From Kappaphycus alvarezii (Eukaryota > Rhodophyta > Florideophyceae > Gigartinales > Solieriaceae): a DNA stretch of 64,000 nt. The stretch is from the NCBI GenBank assembly GCA_002205965.3, contig NADL03000534.1:992001-1056000 (forward strand). The letters are read 5' to 3'. A program made the translations under genes and the position numbers. How positions within the stretch are numbered: the stretch's first letter is position 1; every line of letters starts with the position of its first letter. The notes under the pieces are model-generated. The model did no database searches. It worked only from the letters and a program-made list of their open reading frames with translations, and was not told the DNA's origin. Below are positions 14,552 to 46,253 of this stretch, piece by piece.

Positions 14552-14843
14552 TGTCAATTGTACTGTAATGCCGCATTACACACCAATTTTTTCGGACACA
14601 GTGTTGCAAGCCTTTGCATTTTTATGTATCTGCGATCTCAGCTTCTCCGTTGCCTCGATCATGATCATCGAGAAGTTTCGCTCCGTCTGATTCCGCAGAA
14701 TCCGTAGTCCCGCCCACGCCACAACGTCGGCCCTTCTCTTCTATTAAATTTTATTTTCCCTACTCCTCCGCGTACGCTATTGGCTATTAAGGCTGATTGC
14801 AGAGCTTTACAATAGCTGCTCAAAGAAGGCGGATGACAGGACA
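14552..14843 (+). repeat. Left LTR of the Copia-like fossil
   Basis: It starts TGTCAATTGTACTGTAATG and matches 20,045-20,336 over its length, with scattered substitutions. Shared blocks include GAGAAGTTTCGCTCCGTC and CGTACGCTATTGGCTATTAA. The right edge is uncertain by about 10 bp. I saw no matching target-site duplication. Confidence 0.85.
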
Positions 14844-20044: not shown

Positions 20045-20336
20045 TGTCAATTGTACTGTAATGCAGCATTGCAAACCACGTTTTTCGGACGCAGTGTTGC
20101 ACGCCATTGCATGTTTACGTATCTGCGATCTCGGCTTCTCCGATTCCTCTATCATGATCATCGAGAAGTTTCGCTCCGTCTGATTCCGCAGAATCCGTAG
20201 TCCCACCCTCGCCACAACGTCAGCCCTTCTCGTCTATTAAATTTTATTTTCCTTACTCCGCTGCGTACGCTATTGGCTATTAAGGCTGATTGTAAAACTT
20301 TACAATAGCTGCTCAACGAGGGCGGATAGCTCCACA
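20045..20336 (+). repeat. Right LTR of the Copia-like fossil
   Basis: The partner of 14,552-14,843, with the same length and start and scattered substitutions. The purine-rich GGGATTAGGGGAG lies directly to its left and would be the polypurine tract. Confidence 0.85.
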
Positions 20337-21633: not shown

Positions 21634-21638
21634 TGTGG
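21634..21638. repeat. Left target-site duplication of the Copia array (TGTGG)
   Basis: TGTGG directly abuts the left LTR end (CGTTAG) and recurs directly after the right LTR end (CAACG) at 36,096-36,100. Five base pairs is the usual Copia duplication length. Confidence 0.8.
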
Positions 21639-22201
21639 CGTTAGAGAAGGGCCAAAGACTTTCTATAGAGAAGAGCTTAGGAAAGAAAAAGAAAACAATT
21701 GAGTTGATCCTTTTTATTTTCATTCTTGTTGTGTGTCCTCCACTTTACCACAAGAAGCTACATACTTATACAACTCTCGTCCATGTAAACCTGCAGAAAC
21801 CGCGAAACACATATGACTAACTATTTCCAGGGGCATTATCTACAGAATAAAGTGAGATATAGTATTATAAACGCAAATACACACATACATAAGTCCCAGT
21901 GACGAAAAAGAATCACAACGAACAAGTGCCAGAACGAGATTGCGTACTCGTCCCTTGATAATGTGCTCTTGAACTAAACCATGGTGATGCATGATGATAC
22001 TGCATCCGAACATCAGACATCAATAGAATCAATATAGCGAATAAGCAATAGTAGCACGAATAAACGAAATCAAGACAAACCCAAATGAGAAAGCAGTACA
22101 CGTCCTAGATCAACAAGGAAGTTCTAGAACGAACTTAACATTCTCGAATAATTCTGAGAACCAAGAATACTCCCTAAGACATAACCCTTATGTCTTCAAC
22201 G
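21639..22201 (-). repeat. LTR A (outer 3' LTR of the array)
   Basis: 563 bp. It is the only LTR of the four not followed on its left by an internal region. It matches the other three nearly perfectly except in its outermost 25 bp, where about four substitutions cluster. The plus-strand termini read CGTTAG ... CAACG, so the ends form a short CGTT/AACG inverted repeat rather than the usual TG/CA. Confidence 0.88.
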
Positions 22202-25200
22202 TGCCTTCTTATTCTTGGTTAGAGGAATGAAATGACTGAAGACCAAGTGATGTTGAGTGTCACTGATGAAGTTGACGCTGTAAGGTTTGGTCAACAAATC
22301 GGCAACCATCTCGGACGTAGGGCAGAATCTGATAGCAACTGTACCTGATCGAATGAGATCCTTGACATAATTCCGACGAATTGAAACGTGTTTTTCGTTT
22401 CGAACCCCTTCTGCTTACCACTTCAAGGCACCCTGATTATCTTGATGTAATACAGTTGGGTCCTTCAGTTCAAAGTTGAGCTCAGATAGAAGCTGTCGTA
22501 TCCAAACAAGTTCTTTGCAAGCATCACAAGCCGATATAAACTCTGCTTCAGTACTCGAAAGAGCAATCAAATGTTGTTTAGCAGTGCGCCAAGTGATGGT
22601 TGTAGAACCGAGCTGAACCAAAAAGCCAGAAGTTGATTTTCTGTCAGAAGAGTCACCAGCTTAGTCCGCGTCCGCATAGGCTATGAGCCTCCCAACCTTG
22701 TCATCGATTGACAGAGAAAGGTCCTGTGTACCACGTAGGTAGCGATAGACTCGCTTGACTGCTACCATGTGCTCCTCGTTTGGGTCAGAAACATGATGGG
22801 CGAGTATCGAAACCGATGCACAAATGTCTGGTCTGGTTCTAGTTGAAAGATAGAGTAGGGCACCGATCATTTCACGGTATAGCGTATGATCGCAGCTTAC
22901 CGAGTTGTCTCGTACAACAAGCTTTGTACACATGGGAGTCTTAACTGGCTTACAGTCCTTGAGTCCAAACCTTCGAAGTATCTTTTCCACATAACGTGAC
23001 TGCGAAAGGTAAGCGCCGGTTTCGTGTCGTATGAAGGAAATACCAAGGAAGTGATTTAGGTTACCAAAGTCCTTCACGTCAAGGTGTGACTGTATTAACC
23101 TAACTGCGTCCTGTGCTTTGTCTTCGGAAGAACTGATGACTATGATGTCATCGACATATAGCAAAAGCCAAGTACTTTCATGAACAAATATGCACTTGTC
23201 AGCTCTGAGCGGTGTGAAGCCAATTTCGTGCATCACTTGCAACCAGCGTTCATGCCATAGCTTCGCGGATTGTTTCAGACCATAAAGACCTCTTTGTAGC
23301 TTAAGAAACTCCTCAGCACTACAAAGTGTAATGCTCATTGCCTCAAAACCTGGCGGGGGAGTGACATAAACGACGGAGCCAATTATGCCATTGAGAAATG
23401 CTGTGCGTACATCAAGCTGTCTGATGATCATGCCTCTCTGTACTGCAACTGTCAAAGCAATTCTCACTGAAGAGAAGTCAACGACTGGGGAGTAGACATC
23501 ATGGACAGGGCCCTGCATAAATCCGCGAGCGACAAAACGTGCCTTATACCTATCGACAGAGCCGTCCTCTCTTAGTTTCCGTACGAATGTGAACCTAGTC
23601 TGAAGTGGCTTACAGTCCTTTGGCTTGTTGACAGGGACCCAAGTCTGATGCTTGTTTAGTGAATCAAGTTCGGAACGTATTGCCTCGCGCCAGTACTTTA
23701 CATCAGGAGACGACAATTCCTCTGCAACATTGTTTGGTTCAATATCAATGAGGGCAACATTAGCCATGTTTGGGGAGTAAAACTCTGTCGCTTGCCTGTT
23801 TCGACGTGGATACCGCTGATTACTGTCACCGTTTTGTTCCGCTCCTGATGCATCCTCGTCTGCTGTGCCTCCATTGTTTCCCTCCAAGTCACCGCTACCT
23901 GGTCCATCTTCTTCCGGTCCGCTTCCATCCTCAGCTTCGGTTTGATCTCCGTCAGCAGGTGGTGGCGGTATATACGTCAAAGCGTCCAGGTCTATGCTAA
24001 AGTCAGAGTCATTTTCTTGATTATCAACATCGATAACCTCTGGCACCTCCTCTGGTTCTGTTCCTTGCTGTTGTTGCTGTTCGAGTTCATTTGCTCTTAG
24101 TGTATCAACGCGGGTAAGAGGAACCTCAGAGTCTTCAGGCAAGTTATCGGGAACCGGTTCGACTAGATCTGGGTGGTGCGCAAACCATGTCCTCCTTGGA
24201 AACTGGTCTTCGTGAAATATCACGTGACGAGCCACAACAACAGAGTGCCTACTGTGTATCCAAACCTTTTACTGCGAGTTTTCATTACAGTAGAGTAATA
24301 ACCCCTTCTCAGCCTTAGCGTCCAGATTCCTCCGTTTCTGCTTAGGAATAAAGACCCAGCAAAGGCATCCAAACACCTTAATGTGGTCGACGCGAGGTTT
24401 AAAACCTCTAGCAAGTTCATATGGAGTCTTTGTGGCATTCCTTGGAGCGAACAGACGGTTGCGTACATGAGCGACGAATGTTACTGCCTCTGCCCAATAT
24501 TGCTTTGGTATATTTGCATGGATAAGCATGGAACGTGCTGATTCTAGAATAGTTCTATTCATACGTTCTGCAACCCCGTTCTGATTGGGAGAGTATGGTG
24601 GAGATATGCTGAATTCAATACCTCGACTCTCAAGAAATCCACGCAGTCTTAAAAACTCGCCTCCTCCATCAGAGTGTATCCGCTTGATTGAACATGAGAA
24701 CTTCCGCTCAAACCATAGGTAGAATCTACGAAATGACTGGAACACATCAGACTTTCTTGCAACTACTGCAACATATAAGAAATTAGAATATTCGTCAATG
24801 TATGTTACAAAGTACTTGTTTCCGCCGATTGACTCTCTTGACATAGGTCCGCATACGTCAGAGTGGATGACTTCACCAACACTTGATGCTCTAGTACTCC
24901 TTGCCTTAGAGATTACTCGAGACATCTTACCAGCAGTGCAGCCTGGGCATCCGCTATTATCCAACAAACGATCATTCAACTGTAATCCAGTCACAGTATC
25001 ATGCCGCATTAGCCTTCGAATATCGCTGCTGTTGGCATGTCCAAGTCTCTCATGCCAACGTTGTACTGGATCAACACTCGTAGCAGCGTTAGCGAAATTA
25101 ATTTTCTCTGCTTTCTCACCACCAATCCAATACAGCTCATCATTCTTAATACCCTGAAAAACCAGCAAACCATCCTTCCTACCTGAACATCCTCTTTTTC

Positions 25201-26269
25201 CAAAGTGTAAATCATATCCTTCGTTGGACAACTTGGAGATTGACATAAGGTTAAAGTGTAGATCAGGAATAAGTAAGACATCTCGTAATGTTAGCAATCT
25301 TTCAGCAATTTCGACTTGACCAAATCTGTTGGAGTTAACCCTAACATTTAGAAGAAAATCACCCTTGACTTCGGCTGTGATTATCGAACCGTCTCCCAGA
25401 CGGACATCTTGGGGAGGAATACGATGTAGGTTGGACATTATTGTCTCATCCTTACACATGTGCTCGCTAGCACCGGAGTCCACAATGAACACAACAAGGT
25501 CCCTTTCAACCGAAAACGGCGTTTCAGTATTTGCCATAAGTAGTCTTGATTGACTTGATAAGGCCTGATATGCAGAGTCAAAACTCCGGTCTGTCTCAAT
25601 CTAGATCCATCTTTGATACCGTTCTGACAATTTCTCGAAATGTGACCGATCCTACCGCACCTGTAACATCGACGACGTTCCTGACTTTGCTGATAGCCAC
25701 CTTTTCCTCCTAGACCTCTCACCATGGTACTCCTTCCAGTGGGACGTGAAAAAAGGGCATCACTGAACGGGTTTGATCTTCACTCACAGCAGAATCCATT
25801 CCGGCCAATCGATTGAACACTTCTTCAAAATTGCCGATGTAGTCGGACATTATCTGGCCATTATAGGATAGCTGAGACAAGCGGGTCTGTAACTGTAGCT
25901 TCGTTACAACGTTAGTTACAGAATACCTTTCCTGCAGCTTCTTCCACATGATGAAAGGGTTCTCAACATAAGCCATACACATTCTTAAAGGCTTATCACC
26001 TAGCCCTTGGATTAAAACTGCCCGGGCCTGGTCCACGAGCTTCTGTTCCTCACTTGACAAAGGGTTCTCTTCTGTAGCTTCGTCCACGACATTGCTGGTT
26101 ACGACCTTCAACGCCTCCTTAGCAGCCAGTGCCACCACAGTTCTCGTTTTCCAAATCTGAAAGTCCTCTCCCGGCTTGCCTAGAAACTTGTATATCTTTC
26201 TTGAATCCTCCATGCTGATTAGAGCTGTGATCAATTATAATCTAGAGGCTACAAGCTGGGCCCATAAAC
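22202..26269 (-). mobile_element. Copia internal region, copy 1
   Basis: Parts, reading right to left: gag (from about 26,234, EDSRKIYKFLGKPGEDFQIW) with a CCHC knuckle (CYRCGRIGHISRNC, about 25,650), protease (FIVDSGASEHMCK, about 25,480), pre-integrase zinc segment (HERLGHANSSDIRRL), integrase core (HSDVCGP, IHSDGGGEF and NGVAERMNRT, about 24,880-24,560), Pro/Asp/Glu-rich linker, reverse transcriptase (YVDDIIV near 23,155), and RNase H (SSTEAEFISACDA, HQDNQGA, about 22,660-22,420). This is the least interrupted of the three copies, but it still has breaks. Confidence 0.92.
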
Positions 26270-26832
26270 CGTAAGAGGAGGGCCAAAGACGATCTATAGA
26301 GAAGAGCTTAGGAAAGAAAAAGAAAACAATTGAGTTGATCCTTTTTATTTTCATTCTTGTTGTGTGTCCTCCACTTTACCACAAGAAGCTACATACTTAT
26401 ACAACTCTCGTCCATGTAAACCTGCAGAAACCGCGGAACACATATGACTAACTATTTCCAGGGGCATTATCTACAGAATAAAGTGAGATATAGTATTATA
26501 AACGCAAATACACACATACATAAGTCCCAGTGACGAAAAAGAATCACAACGAACAAGTGCCAGAACGAGATTGCGTACTCGTCCCTTGATAATGTGCTCT
26601 TGAACTAAACCATGGTGATGCATGATGATACTGCATCCGAACATCAGACATCAATAGAATCAATATAGCGAATAAGCAATAGTAGCACGAATAAACGAAA
26701 TCAAGACAAACCCAAATGAGAAAGCAGTACACGTCCTAGATCAACAAGGAAGTTCTAGAACGAACTTAACATTCTCGAATAATTCTGAGAACCAAGAATA
26801 CTCCCTAAGACATAACCCTTATGTCTTCAACG
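26270..26832 (-). repeat. LTR B, shared by copies 1 and 2
   Basis: 563 bp, plus-strand ends CGTAAG ... CAACG. It serves as the 5' LTR of copy 1 and the 3' LTR of copy 2. The conserved bases on its left (GGGCCCATAAAC) would hold the primer-binding site, although I could not name the tRNA. Confidence 0.9.
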
Positions 26833-29800
26833 TGCCTTCTTATTCTTGGTTAGAGGAATGAAATGACTGAAGACCAAGTGATGTTGAGTGTCACTGATGA
26901 AGTTGACGCTGTAAGGGTTTGGTCAACAAATCGGCAACCATCTCGGACGTAGGGCAGAATCTGATAGCAACTGTACCTGATCGAATGAGATCCTTGACAT
27001 AATTCCGACGAATTGAAACGTGTTTTTCGTTTCGAACCCCTTCTGCTTACCACTTCAAGGCACCCTGATTATCTTGATGTAATACAGTTGGGTCCTTCAG
27101 TTCAAAGTTGAGCTCAGATAGAAGCTGTCGTATCCAAACAAGTTCTTTGCAAGCATCACAAGCCGATATAAACTCTGCTTCAGTACTCGAAAGAGCAATC
27201 AAATGTTGTTTAGCAGTGCGCCAAGTGATGGTTGTAGAACCGAGCTGAACCAAAAAGCCAGAAGTTGATTTTCTGTCAGAAGAGTCACCAGCTTAGTCCG
27301 CGTCCGCATAGGCTATGAGCCTCCCAACCTTGTCATCGATTGACAGAGAAAGGTCCTGTGTACCACGTAGGTAGCGATAGACTCGCTTGACTGCTACCAT
27401 GTGCTCCTCGTTTGGGTCAGAAACATGATGGGCGAGTATCGAAACCGATGCACAAATGTCTGGTCTGGTTCTAGTTGAAAGATAGAGTAGGGCACCGATC
27501 ATTTCACGGTATAGCGTATGATCGCAGCTTACCGAGTTGTCTCGTACAACAAGCTTTGTACACATGGGAGTCTTAACTGGCTTACAGTCCTTGAGTCCAA
27601 ACCTTCGAAGTATCTTTTCCACATAACGTGACTGCGAAAGGTAAGCGCCGGTTTCGTGTCGTATGAAGGAAATACCAAGGAAGTGATTTAGGTTACCAAA
27701 GTCCTTCACGTCAAGGTGTGACTGTATTAACCTAACTGCGTCCTGTGCTTTGTCTTCGGAAGAACTGATGACTATGATGTCATCGACATATAGCAAAAGC
27801 CAAGTACTTTCATGAACAAATATGCACTTGTCAGCTCTGAGCGGTGTGAAGCCAATTTCGTGCATCACTTGCAACCAGCGTTCATGCCATAGCTTCGCGG
27901 ATTGTTTCAGACCATAAAGACCTCTTTGTAGCTTAAGAAACTCCTCAGCACTACAAAGTGTAATGCTCATTGCCTCAAACCTGGCGGGGGAGTGACATAA
28001 ACGACGGAGCCAATTATGCCATTGAGAAATGCTGTGCGTACATCAAGCTGTCTGATGATCATGCCTCTCTGTACTGCAACTGTCAAAGCAATTCTCACTG
28101 AAGAGAAGTCAACGACTGGGGAGTAGACATCATGGACAGGGCCCTGCATAAATCCGCGAGCGACAAAACGTGCCTTATACCTATCGACAGAGCCGTCCTC
28201 TCTTAGTTTCCGTACGAATGTGAACCTAGTCTGAAGTGGCTTACAGTCCTTTGGCTTGTTGACAGGGACCCAAGTCTGATGCTTGTTTAGTGAATCAAGT
28301 TCGGAACGTATTGCCTCGCGCCAGTACTTTACATCAGGAGACGACAATTCCTCTGCAACATTGTTTGGTTCAATATCAATGAGGGCAACATTAGCCATGT
28401 TTGGGGAGTAAAACTCTGTCGCTTGCCTGTTTCGACGTGGATACCGCTGATTACTGTCACCGTTTTGTTCCGCTCCTGATGCATCCTCGTCTGCTGTGCC
28501 TCCATTGTTTCCCTCCAAGTCACCGCTACCTGGTCCATCTTCTTCCGGTCCGCTTCCATCCTCAGCTTCGGTTTGATCTCCGTCAGCAGGTGGTGGCGGT
28601 ATATACGTCAAAGCGTCCAGGTCTATGCTAAAGTCAGAGTCATTTTCTTGATTATCAACATCGATAACCTCTGGCACCTCCTCTGGTTCTGTTCCTTGCT
28701 GTTGTTGCTGTTCGAGTTCATTTGCTCTTAGTGTATCAACGCGGGTAAGAGGAACCTCAGAGTCTTCAGGCAAGTTATCGGGAACCGGTTCGACTAGATC
28801 TGGGTGGTGCGCAAACCATGTCCTCCTTGGAAACTGGTCTTCGTGAAATATCACGTGACGAGCCACAACAACAGAGTGCCTACTGTGTATCCAAACCTTT
28901 TACTGCGAGTTTTCATTACAGTAGAGTAATAACCCCTTCTCAGCCTTAGCGTCCAGATTCCTCCGTTTCTGCTTAGGAATAAAGACCCAGCAAAGGCATC
29001 CAAACACCTTAATGTGGTCGACGCGAGGTTTAAAACCTCTAGCAAGTTCATATGGAGTCTTTGTGGCATTCCTTGGAGCGAACAGACGGTTGCGTACATG
29101 AGCGACGAATGTTACTGCCTCTGCCCAATATTGCTTTGGTATATTTGCATGGATAAGCATGGAACGTGCTGATTCTAGAATAGTTCTATTCATACGTTCT
29201 GCAACCCCGTTCTGATTGGGAGAGTATGGTGGAGATATGCTGAATTCAATACCTCGACTCTCAAGAAATCCACGCAGTCTTAAAAACTCGCCTCCTCCAT
29301 CAGAGTGTATCCGCTTGATTGAACATGAGAACTTCCGCTCAAACCATAGGTAGAATCTACGAAATGACTGGAACACATCAGACTTTCTTGCAACTACTGC
29401 AACATATAAGAAATTAGAATATTCGTCAATGTATGTTACAAAGTACTTGTTTCCGCCGATTGACTCTCTTGACATAGGTCCGCATACGTCAGAGTGGATG
29501 ACTTCACCAACACTTGATGCTCTAGTACTCCTTGCCTTAGAGATTACTCGAGACATCTTACCAGCAGTGCAGCCTGGGCATCCGCTATTATCCAACAAAC
29601 GATCATTCAACTGTAATCCAGTCACAGTATCATGCCGCATTAGCCTTCGAATATCGCTGCTGTTGGCATGTCCAAGTCTCTCATGCCAACGTTGTACTGG
29701 ATCAACACTCGTAGCAGCGTTAGCGAAATTAATTTTCTCTGCTTTCTCACCACCAATCCAATACAGCTCATCATTCTTAATACCCTGAAAAACCAGCAAA

Positions 29801-30900
29801 CCATCCTTCCTACCTGAACATCCTCTTTTTCCAAAGTGTAAATCATATCCTTCGTTGGACAACTTGGAGATTGACATAAGGTTAAAGTGTAGATCAGGAA
29901 TAAGTAAGACATCTCGTAATGTTAGCAATCTTTCAGCAATTTCGACTTGACCAATCTGTTGGAGTTAACCCTAACATTTAGAAGAAAATCACCCTTGACT
30001 TCGGCTGTGATTATCGAACCGTCTCCCAGACGGACATCTTGGGGAGGAATACGATGTAGGTTGGACATTATTGTCTCATCCTTACACATGTGCTCGCTAG
30101 CACCGGAGTCCACAATGAACACAACAAGGTCCCTTTCAACCGAAAACGGCGTTTCAGTATTTGCCATAAGTAGTCTTGATTGACTTGATAAGGCCTGATA
30201 TGCAGAGTCAAAACTCCGGTCTGTCTCAATCTAGATCCATCTTTGATACCGTTCTGACAATTTCTCGAAATGTGACCGATCCTACCGCACCTGTAACATC
30301 GACGACGTTCCTGACTTTGCTGATAGACACCTTTTTCCTCCTAGACCTCTCACCATGGTACTCCTTCCAGTGGGACGTGAAAAAGGGCATCACTGAACGG
30401 GTTTTGATCTTCACTCACAGCAGAATCCATTCCGGCCAATCGATTGAACACTTCTTCAAAATTGCCGATGTAGTCGGACATTATCTGGCCATTATAGGAT
30501 AGCTGAGACAAGCGGGTCTGTAACTGTAGCTTCGTTACAACGTTAGTTACAGAATACCTTTCCTGCAGCTTCTTCCACATGATGAAAGGGTTCTCAACAT
30601 AAGCCATACACATTCTTAAAGGCTTATCACCTAGCCCTTGGATTAAAACTGCCCGGGCCTGGTCCACGAGCTTCTGTTCCTCACTTGACAAAGGGTTCTC
30701 TTCTGTAGCTTCGTCCACGACATTGCTGGTTACGACCTTCAACGCCTCCTTAGCAGCCAGTGCCACCACAGTTCTCGTTTTCCAAATCTGAAAGTCCTCT
30801 CCCGGCTTGCCTAGAAACTTGTATATCTTTCTTGAATCCTCCATGCTGATTAGAGCTGTGATCAATTATAATCTAGAGGCTACAAGCTGGGCCCATAAAC
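26833..30900 (-). mobile_element. Copia internal region, copy 2
   Basis: Same parts and order as copy 1: gag from about 30,865, protease about 30,110, integrase about 29,510-29,190, reverse transcriptase about 28,250-27,600, RNase H about 27,290-27,050. It is nearly identical to copy 1, with a few more breaks of its own. A fossil or non-autonomous copy. Confidence 0.92.
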
Positions 30901-31463
30901 CGTAAGAGGAGGGCCAAAGACGATCTATAGAGAAGAGCTTAGGAAAGAAAAAGAAAACAATTGAGTTGATCCTTTTTATTTTCATTCTTGTTGTGTGTCC
31001 TCCACTTTACCACAAGAAGCTACATACTTATACAACTCTCGTCCATGTAAACCTGCAGAAACCGCGGAACACATATGACTAACTATTTCCAGGGGCATTA
31101 TCTACAGAATAAAGTGAGATATAGTATTATAAACGCAAATACACACATACATAAGTCCCAGTGACGAAAAAGAATCACAACGAACAAGTGCCAGAACGAG
31201 ATTGCGTACTCGTCCCTTGATAATGTGCTCTTGAACTAAACCATGGTGATGCATGATGATACTGCATCCGAACATCAGACATCAATAGAATCAATATAGC
31301 GAATAAGCAATAGTAGCACGAATAAACGAAATCAAGACAAACCCAAATGAGAAAGCAGTACACGTCCTAGATCAACAAGGAAGTTCTAGAACGAACTTAA
31401 CATTCTCGAATAATTCTGAGAACCAAGAATACTCCCTAAGACATAACCCTTATGTCTTCAACG
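30901..31463 (-). repeat. LTR C, shared by copies 2 and 3
   Basis: 563 bp and essentially identical to LTR B, including the CGTAAG left end. Confidence 0.9.
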
Positions 31464-34400
31464 TGCCTTCTTATTCTTGGTTAGAGGAATGAAATGACTG
31501 AAGACCAAGTGATGTTGAGTGTCACTGATGAAGTTGACGCTGTAAGGGTTTGGTCAACAAATCGGCAACCATCTCGGACGTAGGGCAGAATCTGATAGCA
31601 ACTGTACCTGATCGAATGAGATCCTTGACATAATTCCGACGAATTGAAACGTGTTTTTCGTTTCGAACCCCTTCTGCTTACCACTTCAAGGCACCCTGAT
31701 TATCTTGATGTAATACAGTTGGGTCCTTCAGTTCAAAGTTGAGCTCAGATAGAAGCTGTCGTATCCAAACAAGTTCTTTGCAAGCATCACAAGCCGATAT
31801 AAACTCTGCTTCAGTACTCGAAAGAGCAATCAAATGTTGTTTAGCAGTGCGCCAAGTGATGGTTGTAGAACCGAGCTGAACCAAAAAGCCAGAAGTTGAT
31901 TTTCTGTCAGAAGAGTCACCAGCTTAGTCCGCGTCCGCATAGGCTATGAGCCTCCCAACCTTGTCATCGATTGACAGAGAAAGGTCCTGTGTACCACGTA
32001 GGTAGCGATAGACTCGCTTGACTGCTACCATGTGCTCCTCGTTTGGGTCAGAAACATGATGGGCGAGTATCGAAACCGATGCACAAATGTCTGGTCTGGT
32101 TCTAGTTGAAAGATAGAGTAGGGCACCGATCATTTCACGGTATAGCGTATGATCGCAGCTTACCGAGTTGTCTCGTACAACAAGCTTTGTACACATGGGA
32201 GTCTTAACTGGCTTACAGTCCTTGAGTCCAAACCTTCGAAGTATCTTTTCCACATAACGTGACTGCGAAAGGTAAGCGCCGGTTTCGTGTCGTATGAAGG
32301 AAATACCAAGGAAGTGATTTAGGTTACCAAAGTCCTTCACGTCAAGGTGTGACTGTATTAACCTAACTGCGTCCTGTGCTTTGTCTTCGGAAGAACTGAT
32401 GACTATGATGTCATCGACATATAGCAAAAGCCAAGTACTTTCATGAACAAATATGCACTTGTCAGCTCTGAGCGGTGTGAAGCCAATTTCGTGCATCACT
32501 TGCAACCAGCGTTCATGCCATAGCTTCGCGGATTGTTTCAGACCATAAAGACCTCTTTGTAGCTTAAGAAACTCCTCAGCACTACAAAGTGTAATGCTCA
32601 TTGCCTCAAAACCTGGCGGGGGAGTGACATAAACGACGGAGCCAATTATGCCATTGAGAAATGCTGTGCGTACATCAAGCTGTCTGATGATCATGCCTCT
32701 CTGTACTGCAACTGTCAAAGCAATTCTCACTGAAGAGAAGTCAACGACTGGGGAGTAGACATCATGGACAGGGCCCTGCATAAATCCGCGAGCGACAAAA
32801 CGTGCCTTATACCTATCGACAGAGCCGTCCTCTCTTAGTTTCCGTACGAATGTGAACCTAGTCTGAAGTGGCTTACAGTCCTTTGGCTTGTTGACAGGGA
32901 CCCAAGTCTGATGCTTGTTTAGTGAATCAAGTTCGGAACGTATTGCCTCGCGCCAGTACTTTACATCAGGAGACGACAATTCCTCTGCAACATTGTTTGG
33001 TTCAATATCAATGAGGGCAACATTAGCCATGTTTGGGGAGTAAAACTCTGTCGCTTGCCTGTTTCGACGTGGATACCGCTGATTACTGTCACCGTTTTGT
33101 TCCGCTCCTGATGCATCCTCGTCTGCTGTGCCTCCATTGTTTCCCTCCAAGTCACCGCTACCTGGTCCATCTTCTTCCGGTCCGCTTCCATCCTCAGCTT
33201 CGGTTTGATCTCCGTCAGCAGGTGGTGGCGGTATATACGTCAAAGCGTCCAGGTCTATGCTAAAGTCAGAGTCATTTTCTTGATTATCAACATCGATAAC
33301 CTCTGGCACCTCCTCTGGTTCTGTTCCTTGCTGTTGTTGCTGTTCGAGTTCATTTGCTCTTAGTGTATCAACGCGGGTAAGAGGAACCTCAGAGTCTTCA
33401 GGCAAGTTATCGGGAACCGGTTCGACTAGATCTGGGTGGTGCGCAAACCATGTCCTCCTTGGAAACTGGTCTTCGTGAAATATCACGTGACGAGCCACAA
33501 CAACAGAGTGCCTACTGTGTATCCAAACCTTTTACTGCGAGTTTTCATTACAGTAGAGTAATAACCCCTTCTCAGCCTTAGCGTCCAGATTCCTCCGTTT
33601 CTGCTTAGGAATAAAGACCCAGCAAAGGCATCCAAACACCTTAATGTGGTCGACGCGAGGTTTAAAACCTCTAGCAAGTTCATATGGAGTCTTTGTGGCA
33701 TTCCTTGGAGCGAACAGACGGTTGCGTACATGAGCGACGAATGTTACTGCCTCTGCCCAATATTGCTTTGGTATATTTGCATGGATAAGCATGGAACGTG
33801 CTGATTCTAGAATAGTTCTATTCATACGTTCTGCAACCCCGTTCTGATTGGGAGAGTATGGTGGAGATATGCTGAATTCAATACCTCGACTCTCAAGAAA
33901 TCCACGCAGTCTTAAAAACTCGCCTCCTCCATCAGAGTGTATCCGCTTGATTGAACATGAAAACTTCCGCTCAAACCATAGGTAGAATCTACGAAATGAC
34001 TGGAACACATCAGACTTTCTTGCAACTACTGCAACATATAAGAAATTAGAATATTCGTCAATGTATGTTACAAAGTACTTGTTTCCGCCGATTGACTCTC
34101 TTGACATAGGTCCGCATACGTCAGAGTGGATGACTTCACCAACACTTGATGCTCTAGTACTCCTTGCCTTAGAGATTACTCGAGACATCTTACCAGCAGT
34201 GCAGCCTGGGCATCCGCTATTATCCAACAAACGATCATTCAACTGTAATCCAGTCACAGTGTCATGCCGCATTAGCCTTCGAATATCGCTGCTGTTGGCA
34301 TGTCCAAGTCTCTCATGCCAACGTTGCACTGGATCAACACTCGTAGCAGCGTTAGCGAAATTAATTTTCTCTGCTTTCTCACCACCAATCCAATACAGCT

Positions 34401-35532
34401 CATCATTCTTAATACCCTGAAAAACCAGCAAACCATCCTTCCTACCTGAACATCCTCTTTTTCCAAAGTGTAAATCATATCCTTCGTTGGACAACTTGGA
34501 GATTGACATAAGGTTAAAGTGTAGATCAGGAATAAGTAAGACATCTCGTAATGTTAGCAATCTTTCAGCAATTTCGACTTGACCAAATCTGTTGGAGTTA
34601 ACCCTAACATTTAGAAGAAAATCACCCTTGACTTCGGCTGTGATTATCGAACCGTCTCCCAGACGGACATCTTGGGAGGAATACGATGTAGGTTGGACAT
34701 TATTGTCTCATCCTTACACATGTGCTCGCTAGCACCGGAGTCCACAATGAACACAACAAGGTCCCTTTCAACCGAAAACGGCGTTTCAGTATTTGCCATA
34801 AGTAGTCTTGATTGACTTGATAAGGCCTGATATGCAGAGTCAAAACCTCCGGTCTGTCTCAATCTAGATCCATCTTTGATACCGTTCTGACAATTTCTCG
34901 AAATGTGACCGATCCTACCGCACCTGTAACATCGACGACGTTACTGACTTTGCTGATAGCCACCTTTTCCTCCTAGACCTCTCACCATGGTACTCCTTCC
35001 AGTGGGACGTGAAAAAAGGGCATCACTGAACGGGTTTGATCTTCACTCACAGCAGAATCCATTCCGGCCAATCGATTGAACACTTCTTCAAAATTGCCGA
35101 TGTAGTCGGACATTATCTGGCCATTATAGGATAGCTGAGACAAGCGGGTCTGTAACTGTAGCTTCGTTACAACGTTAGTTACAGAATACCTTTCCTGCAG
35201 CTTCTTCCACATGATGAAAGGGTTCTCAACATAAGCCATACACATTCTTAAAGGCTTATCACCTAGCCCTTGGATTAAAACTGCCCGGGCCTGGTCCACG
35301 AGCTTCTGTTCCTCACTTGACAAAGGGTTCTCTTCTGTAGCTTCGTCCACGACATTGCTGGTTACGACCTTCAACGCCTCCTTAGCAGCCAGTGCCACCA
35401 CAGTTCTCGTTTTCCAAATCTGAAAGTCCTCTCCCGGCTTGCCTAGAAACTTGTATATCTTTCTTGAATCCTCCATGCTGATTAGAGCTGTGATCAATTA
35501 TAATCTAGAGGCTACAAGCTGGGCCCATAAAC
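31464..35532 (-). mobile_element. Copia internal region, copy 3
   Basis: Same parts as copies 1 and 2: gag from about 35,497, protease about 34,740, integrase about 34,140-33,820, reverse transcriptase about 32,880-32,230, RNase H about 31,920-31,680. It differs from the others at only a handful of bases in about 4 kb and carries several breaks. Confidence 0.92.
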
Positions 35533-36095
35533 CGTAAGAGGAGGGCCAAAGACGATCTATAGAGAAGAGCTTAGGAAAGAAAAAGAAAACAATTGAGTTG
35601 ATCCTTTTTATTTTCATTCTTGTTGTGTGTCCTCCACTTTACCACAAGAAGCTACATACTTATACAACTCTCGTCCATGTAAACCTGCAGAAACCGCGGA
35701 ACACATATGACTAACTATTTCCAGGGGCATTATCTACAGAATAAAGTGAGATATAGTATTATAAACGCAAATACACACATACATAAGTCCCAGTGACGAA
35801 AAAGAATCACAACGAACAAGTGCCAGAACGAGATTGCGTACTCGTCCCTTGATAATGTGCTCTTGAACTAAACCATGGTGATGCATGATGATACTGCATC
35901 CGAACATCAGACATCAATAGAATCAATATAGCGAATAAGCAATAGTAGCACGAATAAACGAAATCAAGACAAACCCAAATGAGAAAGCAGTACACGTCCA
36001 AGATCAACAAGGAAGTTCTAGAACGAACTTAACATTCTCGAATAATTCTGAGAACCAAGAATACTCCCTAAGACATAACCCTTATGTCTTCAACG
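35533..36095 (-). repeat. LTR D (outer 5' LTR of the array)
   Basis: 563 bp. Homology to the other units stops exactly at its right end (CAACG), where unrelated flanking DNA begins. That stop point defines the LTR edge for the whole array. Confidence 0.9.
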
Positions 36096-36100
36096 TGTGG
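36096..36100. repeat. Right target-site duplication of the Copia array (TGTGG)
   Basis: The partner of 21,634-21,638. It directly follows the LTR D end and differs from the bases found at this place inside the array (TGCCT). Confidence 0.8.
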
Positions 36101-36923: not shown

Positions 36924-37099
36924 ATGGCCGAACTGGCCACAAAATGGTGGCTCGAGAAATATTTATAGCACCCTCAACGGCAACCCGGAAGGTTTACACG
37001 TGGCCCACGTGGAAAGCAGCCGGGATAGTTAATTACCTTCCTCCCCGCATGCGCAAATGTAATCACAAGGTCGCTGGCCGTTGCAACTGCTAACAGAGG

Positions 37100-38560
37100 C
37101 ACAGCCTCTGAGCGTCTGGCTGTCTTAGTTGATCATGTCTTCAACCTCATACACCCGACATTCGCCCTTACCGCTGCCAAAGCCTATGACGGCCTCCAAC
37201 GGACGTCCTTCGCGGAGCTTAACGGTGTCACGCTGTCGGACGAAGCATTGTCGCGGGCCACACGTCCCTTCCGCCAAGGTGGCCTCAGCTTCACGCTTAT
37301 CGAGCCGCTTCTCCAAGCTGCTGCCGCCGCAAGCTTCATCGACGCCGCGCCGGCCCACGTGAGGACCGGGGCACACATCGGACCCCACTCCACTGCCCTT
37401 ACCGGCTCCCGAAGCCGCCGCGATAAGTTCTCCCTCCGCCAAACCGTCATCCCAATGCGCGAGTTTGTGCTCCGCATCCCTGGCTGTCCCTCCTCCGTTG
37501 ACCTGGGCTCCTGCTACGTACTTCCCGTCTCTGCAGCACATGCTCACGACCAAACCTACCCAAAGGGTTTGCGGCAGGAGGCGCAAGCCAATGCAGGCCA
37601 AGGTACGCTACGACGGCGAAGCCTGGGCTCGTTCACCGAGTCCCAACCATCACACCGCCGCCGAAGTGAGGCACCGGATACGCGGCCTCGCATTCCGCAA
37701 AATCCCCGATGCCGCATTCCTCCTTTCGCATCCCACCCGCGACACGGAAGTGTCTGTGATGAACTAGCGGACCATGTTGCGCCGCTACCTCGGACTGTCC
37801 GCTTACGATGCCTCGCTCCCTCGGAGCTGCGATCGTTGTAAAAGACCTATGGGCAGGTTGGGATACCTCGCATGGACCTGTGCCGTCAGGGTTCCGTCGC
37901 AAATACCGGCATGACTCGCTCCGCGACGTAATTGCCTGCCGTATCGTCCGTGCAGCCAGCCTGGGCTGTCAGAACGAGGTCCCGCTACTGGTTCCATGCA
38001 CCGAGCAGCGACCCGCTGACGTCCTTGTCCACCCACCAGCAGTTCCCGACGGCACAATCGCCTGCGATGTCACCGTCGTCTCATTGTTCAAGGACGACGT
38101 ATGCGGCGATGCAGGTTGCACTGCACGCTCTGTGGGACCGCGTAACCACCCGTCGCCCTGGATACGAGGCCGCCCAATGTCACGACAACGTGTGATATAC
38201 CACGCCCGCAATCTTTGTGAAATAGCAGATTCCGTCGCACCAAACTCGAGCCTCGTTTCAGCTTAATTCATTCATTGCGCTGCCACTGGCATTGCTGACT
38301 CCGAAAAGGTACACCCACATGCCGGCCAACACCGCCACGCTCTCACCCTACGCATTCCGCCGACCCGTCCTCACCATGCTTGATATTGGCCCCAATCGCA
38401 TTTGACACGCCGGGCGCCCTTTCCCTACGCACTGCCACCATCCGCACAGAACACGCTACCTGCATTCTGGACTGCTGGGGGGTCCACTCGGCCTGCCATT
38501 ACACTTCGCATGAGCCAAAAGAGCAGATTCTTAGGTCGGTACTCTGCACGTCCTGCACGC
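37100..38560 (+). mobile_element. LINE relic, C-terminal half with restriction-like endonuclease
   Basis: GC-rich forward frames read as the end of a non-LTR reverse transcriptase protein. The region after the RT palm is at about 37,180-37,350 (FRQGGLSFTLIEPLLQAAAA, the usual GGLGL element). A Cys-rich knuckle follows at about 37,795-37,890 (LGLSAYDASLPRSCDRCKRP). Then comes a restriction-like endonuclease core: RHDSLRDV near 37,905, RPADVLVHP near 38,010 and IACDVTVVSLFKDD near 38,060. The tail FAPIAFDTPGALS type is near 38,393. The endonuclease motifs (RPxDV ... DVTV) are of the PD-(D/E)XK kind found at the C-terminus of early-branching LINEs. Several frame changes and stops show it is dead. 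The missing fingers/palm suggests ordinary 5' truncation. Confidence 0.68.
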
Positions 38561-43132: not shown

Positions 43133-44695
43133 ATGGTCGCCAATGCCATATCTGCCCCGGGTGTATTAGATACTGATAATAGTGGCGGCGTCTTAATGGC
43201 CCCCCGCAATGGCACCATTGCTGTGAAATTTTCCCCCTCATTGGCAGAATATACCGGCGAATTGCTTGTTTTGGCCGTTTGGGCACCTGAGGATGACGAA
43301 AAGGATTATCAAGTACCACCTGCCATTGGCGAGGCTCTCGGCCTGGAAGATGTATTCGCGGAAATCGTCGCCGATTCAGAGTTCAAGGCAAAACCGGCAA
43401 GTAGCACTGAAGTGGTCAGGGTTGTTGGAAAAGGCCCGAAACGTGTGGCCCTGTACGGGTTGGGGAAGAAAGGAAAGGAGGGATCGCCGGTGGCGGGGGC
43501 AGCAAAGTTTGCAGTTCAGAAGGCCATCGGAGTGAAGATGTGCTCGAGTGTGGGCTTGTACATTGATGATGCCGGATTGACGCAAGTGGCACAAGCGGCA
43601 GAGGGAGGAACTGTGGGCGGATATGTGGATGAAAGGTATAGAGAGAAGAAGGAGACGGAAAAGGTGCCGGAGAGTTGATGCTTGTGGGACTTGGAGGTGG
43701 GGCGGAGATGGAGGGGGCTGTGAAGAGGGGGTGGCGATTGCAACGGGAATCATTACGACCAGGGAAGTGGTTGCAGCCCCGGCGAATGCTTTGACCCCGC
43801 GACAATGGCTGTGGCGGCGGAGATGGTGGCAAAGGAGGTGGGCTTGGGGATTAAGGTGATGGGGAGGGCCGAGTGCGAGGAGTTGGGCATGGGTAGCTAC
43901 TTGGGTGTGGGGAGAGGTTCTACTGATGAGCCCAAGTTTATTCATATGTGGTACGTACCGGAAGGGGAGGTTAGAAAGAAGTTGTGTATGGTAGGGAAGA
44001 CAGTAACTTTTGATACCGGCGGTACCAACCTGAAGACACAAGGGGGAATTGAGATGATGAAGTTTGACATGGGGGTGGAGCGGTTTGTCTCGGGACGGCC
44101 AAGGTGCTGGGACAGTTGAAACCGGAGGGCGTAGAGGTGCATTTCATTATGCCAGCGGTGGAGAATATGTTGAGTGATCGGGCGATTCATCCCGGGGATA
44201 TTCTCAAGGCGTCGAATGGAAAGACGGTGGAGGTGTTGAATACAGACGCGGAGGGGAGGTTGACTCTGGCTGATGCGGTGGTATATGCAGAGGGTTTGGG
44301 GGATGTGGATTATGTGGTGGATTTGGCGACGTTGACAGGAGCGATTATCGTGGGGTTGGGGAATGAAGTGGCGGGGATGTGGAGTTCGTCAGATGAGATG
44401 GCGGAGATGTTGTTGGAGGCGAGTAAGAAGGTGGTGAGGGAATGTGGAGGATGCCGTTGGTAGAGGAATATGTGGAGCAGTTGAAGAGTAAGATTGCGGA
44501 TTTGAGGAATATTCGGGGCGGGGAGGGCGGGAGGTGCCATCACGGCTGCGTTGTTCATTCGAGAGTTTGTGAAGACTAAGAATTGGGCGCACATTGACAT
44601 TGCTGGGCCTGTGTGGAATGATAAGAAGGGAGGAGCGACGGGTATGGGTGAAGACGATGGTTGAGTGGATCGAGTCGGTGATGAGGAAGGAATAA
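43133..44695 (+). pseudogene. M17 leucyl aminopeptidase, with several frame breaks
   Basis: Cytosolic or plastid aminopeptidase of family M17, which removes N-terminal residues using two metal ions in a hexamer. The start ATG at 43,133 sits in CACAATGG. The N-terminal domain (residues 1 to about 170) begins MVANAISAPGVLDTDNSGGV. The linking region REVVAAPANALTP is near 43,760. The catalytic domain shows GKTVTFDTGGTNLKTQGGIE (usual FDSGG), the signature NTDAEGRL at 44,239-44,262, and [10 protein letters not shown] near 44,315. The end is WIESVMRKE with stop at 44,693-44,695. The total is near the normal size for the catalytic core. The frame shifts about seven times: near 43,675, 43,730, 43,797, 44,080, 44,445, 44,510 and 44,650. 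Several of these need only one base in a G or C run. It is either a very recent pseudogene or, more likely, an intact gene with sequence errors. Confidence 0.9.
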
Positions 44696-45002
44696 AGGGA
44701 ACGGGATTGGGTGTAGTGCGTGTGGGGAAAGGTTGGTTTGAAGAGATGAGGGTTTTGAGTCGGGAGTGGAAGCGGTGAGGAGCAGAGGTTGGATACGGTG
44801 TTGTGCAAGAGTTTAACAAGAGCAGTGGACACTAGAGTACATGCATGGATGAGCGGAGCAAACGGAGTAACTAGAAGGTTGGGTGCACTGATACAGTTGG
44901 ACTCTTGAATAAACGAGTGTAGGTGAAAGTGAGTGCAGTAGATGCAAACATGGCGTAGGTGAGGGCGGGGGTGGTGGTGGTTGGTTGAAGAATTGTTTGG
45001 TG

Positions 45003-45616
45003 TTAGGTTGCGGTACCTTGAAGACTGGGGCCAACGGCAGCGCCGAAGACAATATTCGGCTCGTTGGGATCCGGAACTAACGTCTGGACAAGCGGAGGTG
45101 GGGCTTGGGCTTGGTGTGTTGCATGTGTGGAGGGCGGGGTGTGGGAGGTATGCGAGGATGGCATGGGAGGATGGTTGGGAGAAAAGTGATCGGAATGAGA
45201 GGCGGGGGCTTGTCGTAGAGATCGGTGAGAAGGAGCTCGGGGAGAGGCGGGAGGGGTTGATGGGGAGGATGGGGGCGAGGTGTGGTGTTGGATATAGGGC
45301 AGGTTTTGCCGCCGACGGGGCGGCACGAGGGGGGAGGGCTGGAGAGCGAGGCGGATTGGTAAGGCGTCCGGGGTGAGGTTCATTTTGGTTTGGTTGGGAA
45401 CGGGGATGGTGTGGACTGTGTGGAGTGGAGCGATGGAATGATGGATTTATTATGGTGTGTTTTGGGGAAGACAGAGTTGAAGCGGGGGATGGTTGACGGA
45501 AAGATGAAGATGAGGAGTAGAGAGTGAGTGAGTGATGCGGAAGGAATAAAGCGATGGATTGCAGAGCATGTATGGAAAACGATTGGGGAGTGTGGTGGAG
45601 GGCGGATAAAATGCAA
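45003..45616 (-). CDS. Pro/Ser/His-rich ORF pair, status uncertain
   Basis: Two adjacent minus-strand frames: 45,380-45,616 (78 codons) and 45,003-45,383 (126 codons). The second starts MNLTPDALPIRLALQ, continues with long Pro/Ser/His/Thr stretches and ends DPNEPNIVFGAAVGPSLQG. The frames are convergent with the aminopeptidase gene. The G-rich plus strand makes open C-rich frames on the minus strand likely by chance, so these may not be genes. If real, they would encode a disordered protein. No domain recognised. Confidence 0.25.
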
Positions 45617-45938
45617 GTTGAGTTACGATGCCCTTTTTCTATATCTCGTGATATATCTGGTTGTCAACGCCCAATGGATTTGCAGCGCCAGATATTTTTC
45701 AGGTGTGGAAACTAGAGGGCGGATTGGTTGGAATGTCACGCATGATACCAAAAAAACATCAAAACACACTTGAAACCACCCGGATGTGTGCGGATAGCCA
45801 TCCTGCCACGCCGGGGCGTCAAATCCACCGTCAGTTGTCGATTGCGCAATGTGACAACCATGGGCCGCACCGCAGTATTGAGGCAGATACAAGACTGCAA
45901 ACGATGGTGCCCTGATCACTCGATTTGGGATGACACGT

Positions 45939-46253
45939 TCAATGGCGAAATGGACGTATCATAAATTTGAAAAGGCGGGTTGCGCGAGCACGAAGCGTTT
46001 TGTGTGTGTTGGTTGTTGTGTTGTGGGGGGTGGAAGAGGCGGGGGAAGGGGAGAGGAAGGAGGAGGGGTTGGGGAGAGGGTTGGAATGGATAGACTTGAG
46101 CGAGGTGGGGTGGGGTGTGGGGTGACGGCGGAGGGGGTGAATGGAGGGACACGAGGTTGTGGTGTGAGAATGGAATGAGGTGGAGGAGGGGTGTGAGAAT
46201 ACGCCAGTATACGAGTCTGTGAGGAGATCATCGGGAAAGGGGTCTTGTTCCAT
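45939..46253 (-). CDS. Hypothetical Ser/Pro/His-rich protein, 104 aa
   Basis: I place the start at 46,253 (MEQDPFPDDLLTDSYTGVF) rather than at the longer frame's Met at 46,466. The longer version would run through a hexanucleotide repeat that reads as alternating His-Arg, and a TATA-like box lies only 56 bases before 46,253. The body is Ser/Pro/Thr/His-rich and ends RATRLFKFMIRPFRH. No domain recognised. The acidic, well-mixed N-terminus argues for a true gene. The low-complexity remainder argues against. Confidence 0.3.
   Translation of the reverse strand: MEQDPFPDDLLTDSYTGVFSHPSSTSFHSHTTTSCPSIHPLRRHPTPHPTSLKSIHSNPLPNPSSFLSPSPASSTPHNTTTNTHKTLRARATRLFKFMIRPFRH

Follow-up and report, generated by a model that had tools for sequence, protein, structure and literature searches.

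The DNA analyzed here, a stretch of 64,000 nucleotides from the red alga Kappaphycus alvarezii (the window; bases 992001-1056000 of C530, a contig of 2.07 Mb in a searched genome of 336 Mb and 884 contigs), carries three units of a Copia retrotransposon in tandem, and we think it likely that a single element grew in place to these three units by unequal exchange between its own long terminal repeats (LTRs). As assembled, four 563-bp LTRs are interleaved with three internal regions of 4068, 4068 and 4069 bp (units 1, 2 and 3), and the start-to-start spacing of the LTRs is 4631, 4631 and 4632 bp, in agreement with the layout and the period of about 4,631 bp given in an earlier, sequence-only reading of this DNA. 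The array starts and ends with an LTR, and the inner LTRs are shared between adjoining units; since the coding strand is the minus strand, the outer 3' LTR is the leftmost (LTR1) and the outer 5' LTR the rightmost (LTR4).

The borders of the array point to one insertion. The sequence-only reading had placed a TGTGG pair at the two outer edges alone, and this is what we find: the inner borders read TAAAC before the LTR and TGCCT after it, and a search of these inner junctions for different target duplications turned up none. By base composition, the chance of one given 5-bp match is about 0.001. Moreover, a 5-bp target duplication is the rule in the array's family. Among 18 other copies examined (six full, and 12 that show just one LTR within 10 kb), an exact outer 5-bp duplication can be read from the borders in 14, and the remaining four comprise one with a duplication after a 1-base shift (C263), two with one mismatch (C812 and C633), and one with none (C50). 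The flanks of the array also match contig C809 for kilobases on each side, at 87 to 90% identity by BLAST (82 to 86% in the initial search), and at C809 these flanks join uninterrupted at a single TGTGG. They match C454 at 75 to 80%, in pieces, joining at CGTGG, and a third partial match, C622, stops short of the insertion point. We treat C809 and C454 as related loci of the same genome, not as alleles; both of these related loci, which reach the insertion point, are without the insert and have a single target copy. Because the duplication is found at the outer edges only, and because two related empty sites carry one target copy, we read the array as one insertion, which bears out what had been suggested from the sequence.

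The three units also share a damaged ancestor. Fifty-three substitutions are common to all three internal regions and occur in none of six other full copies of the family (a count that omits the columns at the primer side where the internal regions of C50, C669 and C5 are about 60 bp short), and a 177-bp deletion and an in-frame stop have the same distribution. The three pairs of units differ by one to two, four, and five to six substitutions of about 4068, depending on the alignment, versus 63 to 161 differing sites between each unit and the six other full copies. Since private substitutions, deletion and stop recur in every unit, the units were copied from one another or from one damaged source; some of the 53 common substitutions may predate the insertion. 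That the element multiplied after it had decayed, as had been proposed, is supported by these common private mutations and by the LTR markers described below.

We aligned the four LTRs of the array with 23 others, 11 from the six full copies and 12 solo LTRs; the second LTR of C18, which is broken up by an insertion, was dropped. Six sites vary within the array (positions 4, 9, 22, 23, 167 and 468). At positions 4 and 23, LTR2-4 carry a base that is absent from LTR1 and from the 23 other LTRs, of which, at position 23, 15 have the ancestral base and eight are gapped in the alignment. At positions 9, 22 and 167, LTR1 is set apart from LTR2-4, for a total of five sites between LTR1 and the inner LTRs; at position 468, LTR4 alone differs and the inner LTRs carry the ancestral base. 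The U5 end adjoins the internal region, on the primer side, in LTR2-4 and lies at the outer edge in LTR1. Thus, the derived bases at the U5 end of LTR2-4 form the pattern expected if the old 5' LTR mutated and its U5 end was then copied into the inner LTRs, and the simplest reading of the alignment is that this primer-side end was copied after mutating. Could LTR1 have been converted by another copy? The states of LTR1 at positions 22 and 167 occur in none of the 23 other LTRs, and its state at position 9 occurs in one of 23, and therefore we find no donor among these 23 LTRs.

The sequence shows that one Copia element inserted once, in minus orientation, duplicating TGTGG, and that its 5' and 3' LTRs came to differ, for the most part at the U5 end. 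In the mechanism that we propose for what followed, the 5' LTR of one chromatid paired out of register with the 3' LTR of the other, and homologous exchange between them would add a unit; the third unit would come from a second exchange, or both at once from a double-unit exchange, and the partners could be sister chromatids or homologues. The inner LTRs would thereby inherit the old 5' LTR's U5 end without another target duplication being made, and the units may have been kept alike by more exchange or conversion among them. Unequal exchange is the simplest account, in that growth, the LTR markers, and the likeness of the units all follow from it, and the earlier suggestion of multiplication in place by this route gains support here in that it fits the common private mutations and the LTR markers without extra steps. 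We regard the array as a passive product of host recombination, with no function indicated; it is probably unstable and could collapse into a solo LTR.

How old are the insertion and its units? LTR1 and LTR4 differ at 6 of 563 sites (1.1%), and five other LTR pairs of the family differ at 10/556, 5/561, 9/498, 6/501 and 7/493 sites (0.9 to 1.8%; C18 was left out of this comparison, and the LTRs of C50, C669 and C5 carry a deletion). The divergence between units is 0.02 to 0.15%. Within the array, three changes are private to LTR1, versus 0.24 expected if it were as young as the units (P of about 0.002, a post hoc value from few sites). On the face of it, these comparisons would make the insertion one of ordinary age and the units roughly tenfold younger. 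As to where such differences fall in other copies, all 11 differences of the C812 LTR pair lie within the first 76 bp, a poorly aligned stretch, and the five of the C700 pair are spread over positions 100-549.

Several points weigh against growth in place as we have described it. Of the six variable LTR sites, four lie inside the first 25 of 563 bp (chance, about 5e-5), and 15 other full-form LTRs show no general excess of variation in this stretch (minority bases, 1.6% versus 1.9% elsewhere); beyond it, LTR1 differs from the inner LTRs at 1 of 538 sites. If the cluster is counted as one event, or is omitted, little is left of the contrast in age between LTRs and units. Conversion sparing only the outer end of LTR1 could both make such a cluster and homogenise an array that had been complete on arrival. 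For the U3-side half of the LTR chimera there is no marker, the inner LTRs being ancestral at position 468, and exchange, reintegration of a circle, and recombination with the element's own complementary DNA (cDNA) leave one footprint. Among the internal regions there are eight 1-bp sites of insertion or deletion (indels) versus five substitutions, an excess that suggests base-level assembly error. Since most of the LTR differences are crowded into the first 25 bp, without general variability there, they do not act as a simple clock. On one view, exchange or conversion has made LTR1 match the inner LTRs everywhere but at its outer end, which lies by the unique flank and would rarely be reached by such tracts. 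The clustered differences thus support active LTR recombination yet weaken the dating, which is less firm than the topology.

Can the array be explained in other ways? Family members are present elsewhere in the genome and could in principle have supplied three independent or nested insertions, an explanation that the sequence-only reading had thought unlikely and that we reject as having next to no chance of being right: inner duplications are missing, the inner LTRs are shared, and the units are nearly identical, being 1 to 6 differences apart versus 63 to 161 to the six other full copies. It is quite unlikely that the assembly has been expanded, with fewer real units than were assembled, a situation that would be compatible with growth in place. 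The differences between units are rich in indels, which speaks for expansion; units and LTRs also differ by substitutions, including the five sites that separate LTR1 from the inner LTRs, and a 563-bp LTR is short relative to long reads, if such reads were used.

Arrival as a multimeric or circular intermediate had been offered alongside exchange, and its two parts have fared differently. A multimer, that is, a tandem transcript or concatemer integrated once with its units homogenised later, would account for the single outer duplication, is named as possible in a survey of plant elements (Morales-Diaz et al. 2025, PMC11899658), and is permitted by the clustered LTR differences provided that conversion left nothing but the outer end of LTR1 untouched. 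Without homogenisation, however, a multimer predicts LTRs and units of equal age and no derived bases limited to LTR2-4, and with it the explanation needs the same recombination as the simpler one plus a multimeric intermediate; we consider it very unlikely, that is, disfavoured and no further. A circle or cDNA of the same element leaves the same marks as exchange. Here, without integrase, a cDNA or one-LTR circle of this element would have recombined into its own LTR, adding one unit each time. Integrase-independent recombination has been reported in yeast (PMC11899658), and the element's own cDNA or circle would likewise leave the inner LTRs with the 5' LTR's U5 end, without adding a duplication. 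The donor must, however, be this damaged copy and none of the six other full copies, given the 53 private substitutions, the deletion and the stop in all units, and cDNA of another family member would not leave the array's marks. We hold this route to be unlikely.

The element itself is placed in Copia because of its domains, not its LTR ends. A Pfam search run on unit 1 only returned RVT_2, Pol_BBD, rve, gag_pre-integrs, SH3_retrovirus and Retrotran_gag_2, in the order of Copia (gag, with the integrase side upstream, and then reverse transcriptase). RVT_2 together with gag domains, integrase before reverse transcriptase, and direct LTRs with a 5-bp target duplication are thus all found. The usual LTR termini are TG..CA, other ends being a recognised exception; TG..CA was looked for at the ends of the array's LTRs and is absent, with CGTT..AACG in its place at the outer edges of the array and in most other family copies. 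Scored in three units, a 171-codon gag piece stops at one common place, and pol resumes in another frame. The sequence-only reading had described the frame breaks as common to all three copies, which holds for the in-frame stop at 24269-24271 and for the end of gag but not for the 1-bp indels at the eight sites among the internal regions, which are private to single units and differ among them.

Coordinates in the window of the array and its parts
Feature	Position	Strand	Remark
Left target-site duplication, TGTGG	21634..21638	.	From sequence; single copy at related empty sites C809 (TGTGG) and C454 (CGTGG)
LTR1, outer 3' LTR	21639..22201	-	563 bp; without the two marker substitutions common to LTR2-4
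Internal region, unit 1 (gag, integrase, reverse transcriptase; broken frames)	22202..26269	-	
Reverse transcriptase part of pol, unit 1, 524 codons	22661..24235	-	RVT_2, E 1.3e-52
In-frame stop, unit 1	24269..24271	-	Aligned triplet is a stop in 3/3 units, 0/6 other full copies
Pol_BBD/integrase part of pol, unit 1	24269..25537	-	Pol_BBD, gag_pre-integrs, rve, SH3_retrovirus
gag fragment, unit 1, 171 codons	25719..26234	-	Retrotran_gag_2, E 8e-12
Site of 177-bp deletion	25775..25776	.	In all three units, 0/6 other full copies
LTR2, inner shared LTR	26270..26832	-	Identical to LTR3
Internal region, unit 2	26833..30900	-	
LTR3, inner shared LTR	30901..31463	-	
Internal region, unit 3	31464..35532	-	
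LTR4, outer 5' LTR	35533..36095	-	One private substitution
Right target-site duplication, TGTGG	36096..36100	.	From sequence

Elsewhere in the genome, a search with the LTR gave at least 39 matches, some of them partial, and a search with some 2.4 kb of internal sequence gave the six other full copies besides the three units, together with short pieces. LTR pieces at C873 and C81 were left out, and several short matches at 77 to 78% were not counted as family. Because 12 solo LTRs stand against seven full loci, including the array, we call LTR-LTR recombination common in this family, and this suggests that solo LTR and array are opposite outcomes of one recombination process. Three of the solo LTRs (C486:24532-25093, C486:95823-96384 and C263:35243-35792) have identical flanking letters and probably stem from a single insertion that was duplicated along with its surroundings. 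As to the host, a search of the genome for RuBisCO gave no match and one for light-harvesting proteins gave 22; one of these 22, when set against solved structures, resembled chains named LHCI, FCPI, ACPI and VCPI, names that point to the red lineage, and a photosynthetic alga of that lineage is likely.

Plants, yeast and animals have already yielded tandem LTR retrotransposons, and the array is a further case. In yeast, work by Ke and Voytas in 1997 reportedly found that Ty5 forms tandem elements by recombination of cDNA; in the Ty5 and Ty1 cases, such tandems resemble the array in their shared LTRs and lack of a new duplication, whereas their donor is cDNA and the units of the array descend from one damaged copy. 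Among the papers listed in a literature search, none, judged by titles and the beginnings of abstracts, reports such an array in a red alga. Tandem LTR retrotransposons have been described in rice, Arabidopsis, almond and cotton (PMC11899658), and, like the array, they have an LTR-internal-LTR-internal-LTR structure with shared inner LTRs and similar units, and a 5-bp duplication on the outside only. They also have an empty site in another accession, where for the array the comparison is with two related loci of the same genome, both empty; unlike them, the array is a Copia element in an alga and has three units. Tandem arrays of Cassandra, a terminal-repeat retrotransposon in miniature (PMC7215508), likewise consist of LTR and internal domain head to tail, with local recombination proposed, but Cassandra is without a coding internal domain, and the element of the array has remnants of gag and pol. 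In the endogenous retrovirus megasatellite of kangaroos, cited in PMC11899658, LTR and internal region are also repeated and LTR-LTR recombination has been proposed, at megasatellite scale and at centromeres, in contrast to three units at one site. The plant survey leaves arrival as a multimer versus growth in place open, and a rice locus on chromosome 2 left the order of events unsettled for its authors (PMC11899658), an order on which the LTR markers of the array do bear. The array thus suggests a test for any tandem LTR array: do its LTRs share derived bases, how does the age of the outer pair compare with that of the units, and where do the differences lie? Applied to this locus, the test is answered most simply by one damaged copy that grew in place, and conversion among the units complicates the picture.

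Is such growth a habit of Copia elements in this genome? A search for RVT_2 gave 8199 candidates, of which the best 150 were scored. Among these 150 there are 36 neighbour pairs less than 9 kb apart, 35 of them sharing a strand; spacings near 6.5, 6.0 or 8.0 kb are frequent, and 21 same-strand runs hold 56 of the 150 matches, the longest run having seven. The runs include C884:1-20000, C161:41683-78240, C514, C774, C301, C391 and C229, with many open frames of more than 1,000 codons. The first 20 kb of C884 are a head-to-tail repeat of about 6.55 kb, 98.7 to 100% identical, and within one period nothing occurs twice except short local repeats near 5.0-5.3 kb. The repeat belongs to a Copia family different from that of the array, and C884 is only 62 kb long, with effects of assembly on the repeat possible. 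We speculate, and hold it doubtful, that Copia elements habitually become head-to-tail megasatellite-like arrays by LTR-LTR exchange and that the three-unit array is an early stage of runs of the C884 and C161 type, which may form heterochromatin or centromeres.

Several other features of the window deserve mention. A leucine aminopeptidase gene (Peptidase_M17_N) lies at 43133-44700, with conserved stretches seemingly in more than one frame when judged by eye; it would appear to be a pseudogene or to contain 1-bp assembly errors, and it warns against trusting 1-bp indels in the window. Through this gene and beyond it, at 44001-46000, the plus strand has a strong excess of G over C (skew, 0.50). 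A 283-bp direct repeat is found at 14552-14834 and 20045-20327, 5.5 kb apart and 91% identical; its relatives in the genome are many, several of them paired about 6.7-7.4 kb apart, and the two copies are probably the LTRs of another, older element that is also present at C809. Finally, a repeat at 37064-37595 has dozens of relatives in the genome at about 75 to 80% identity.

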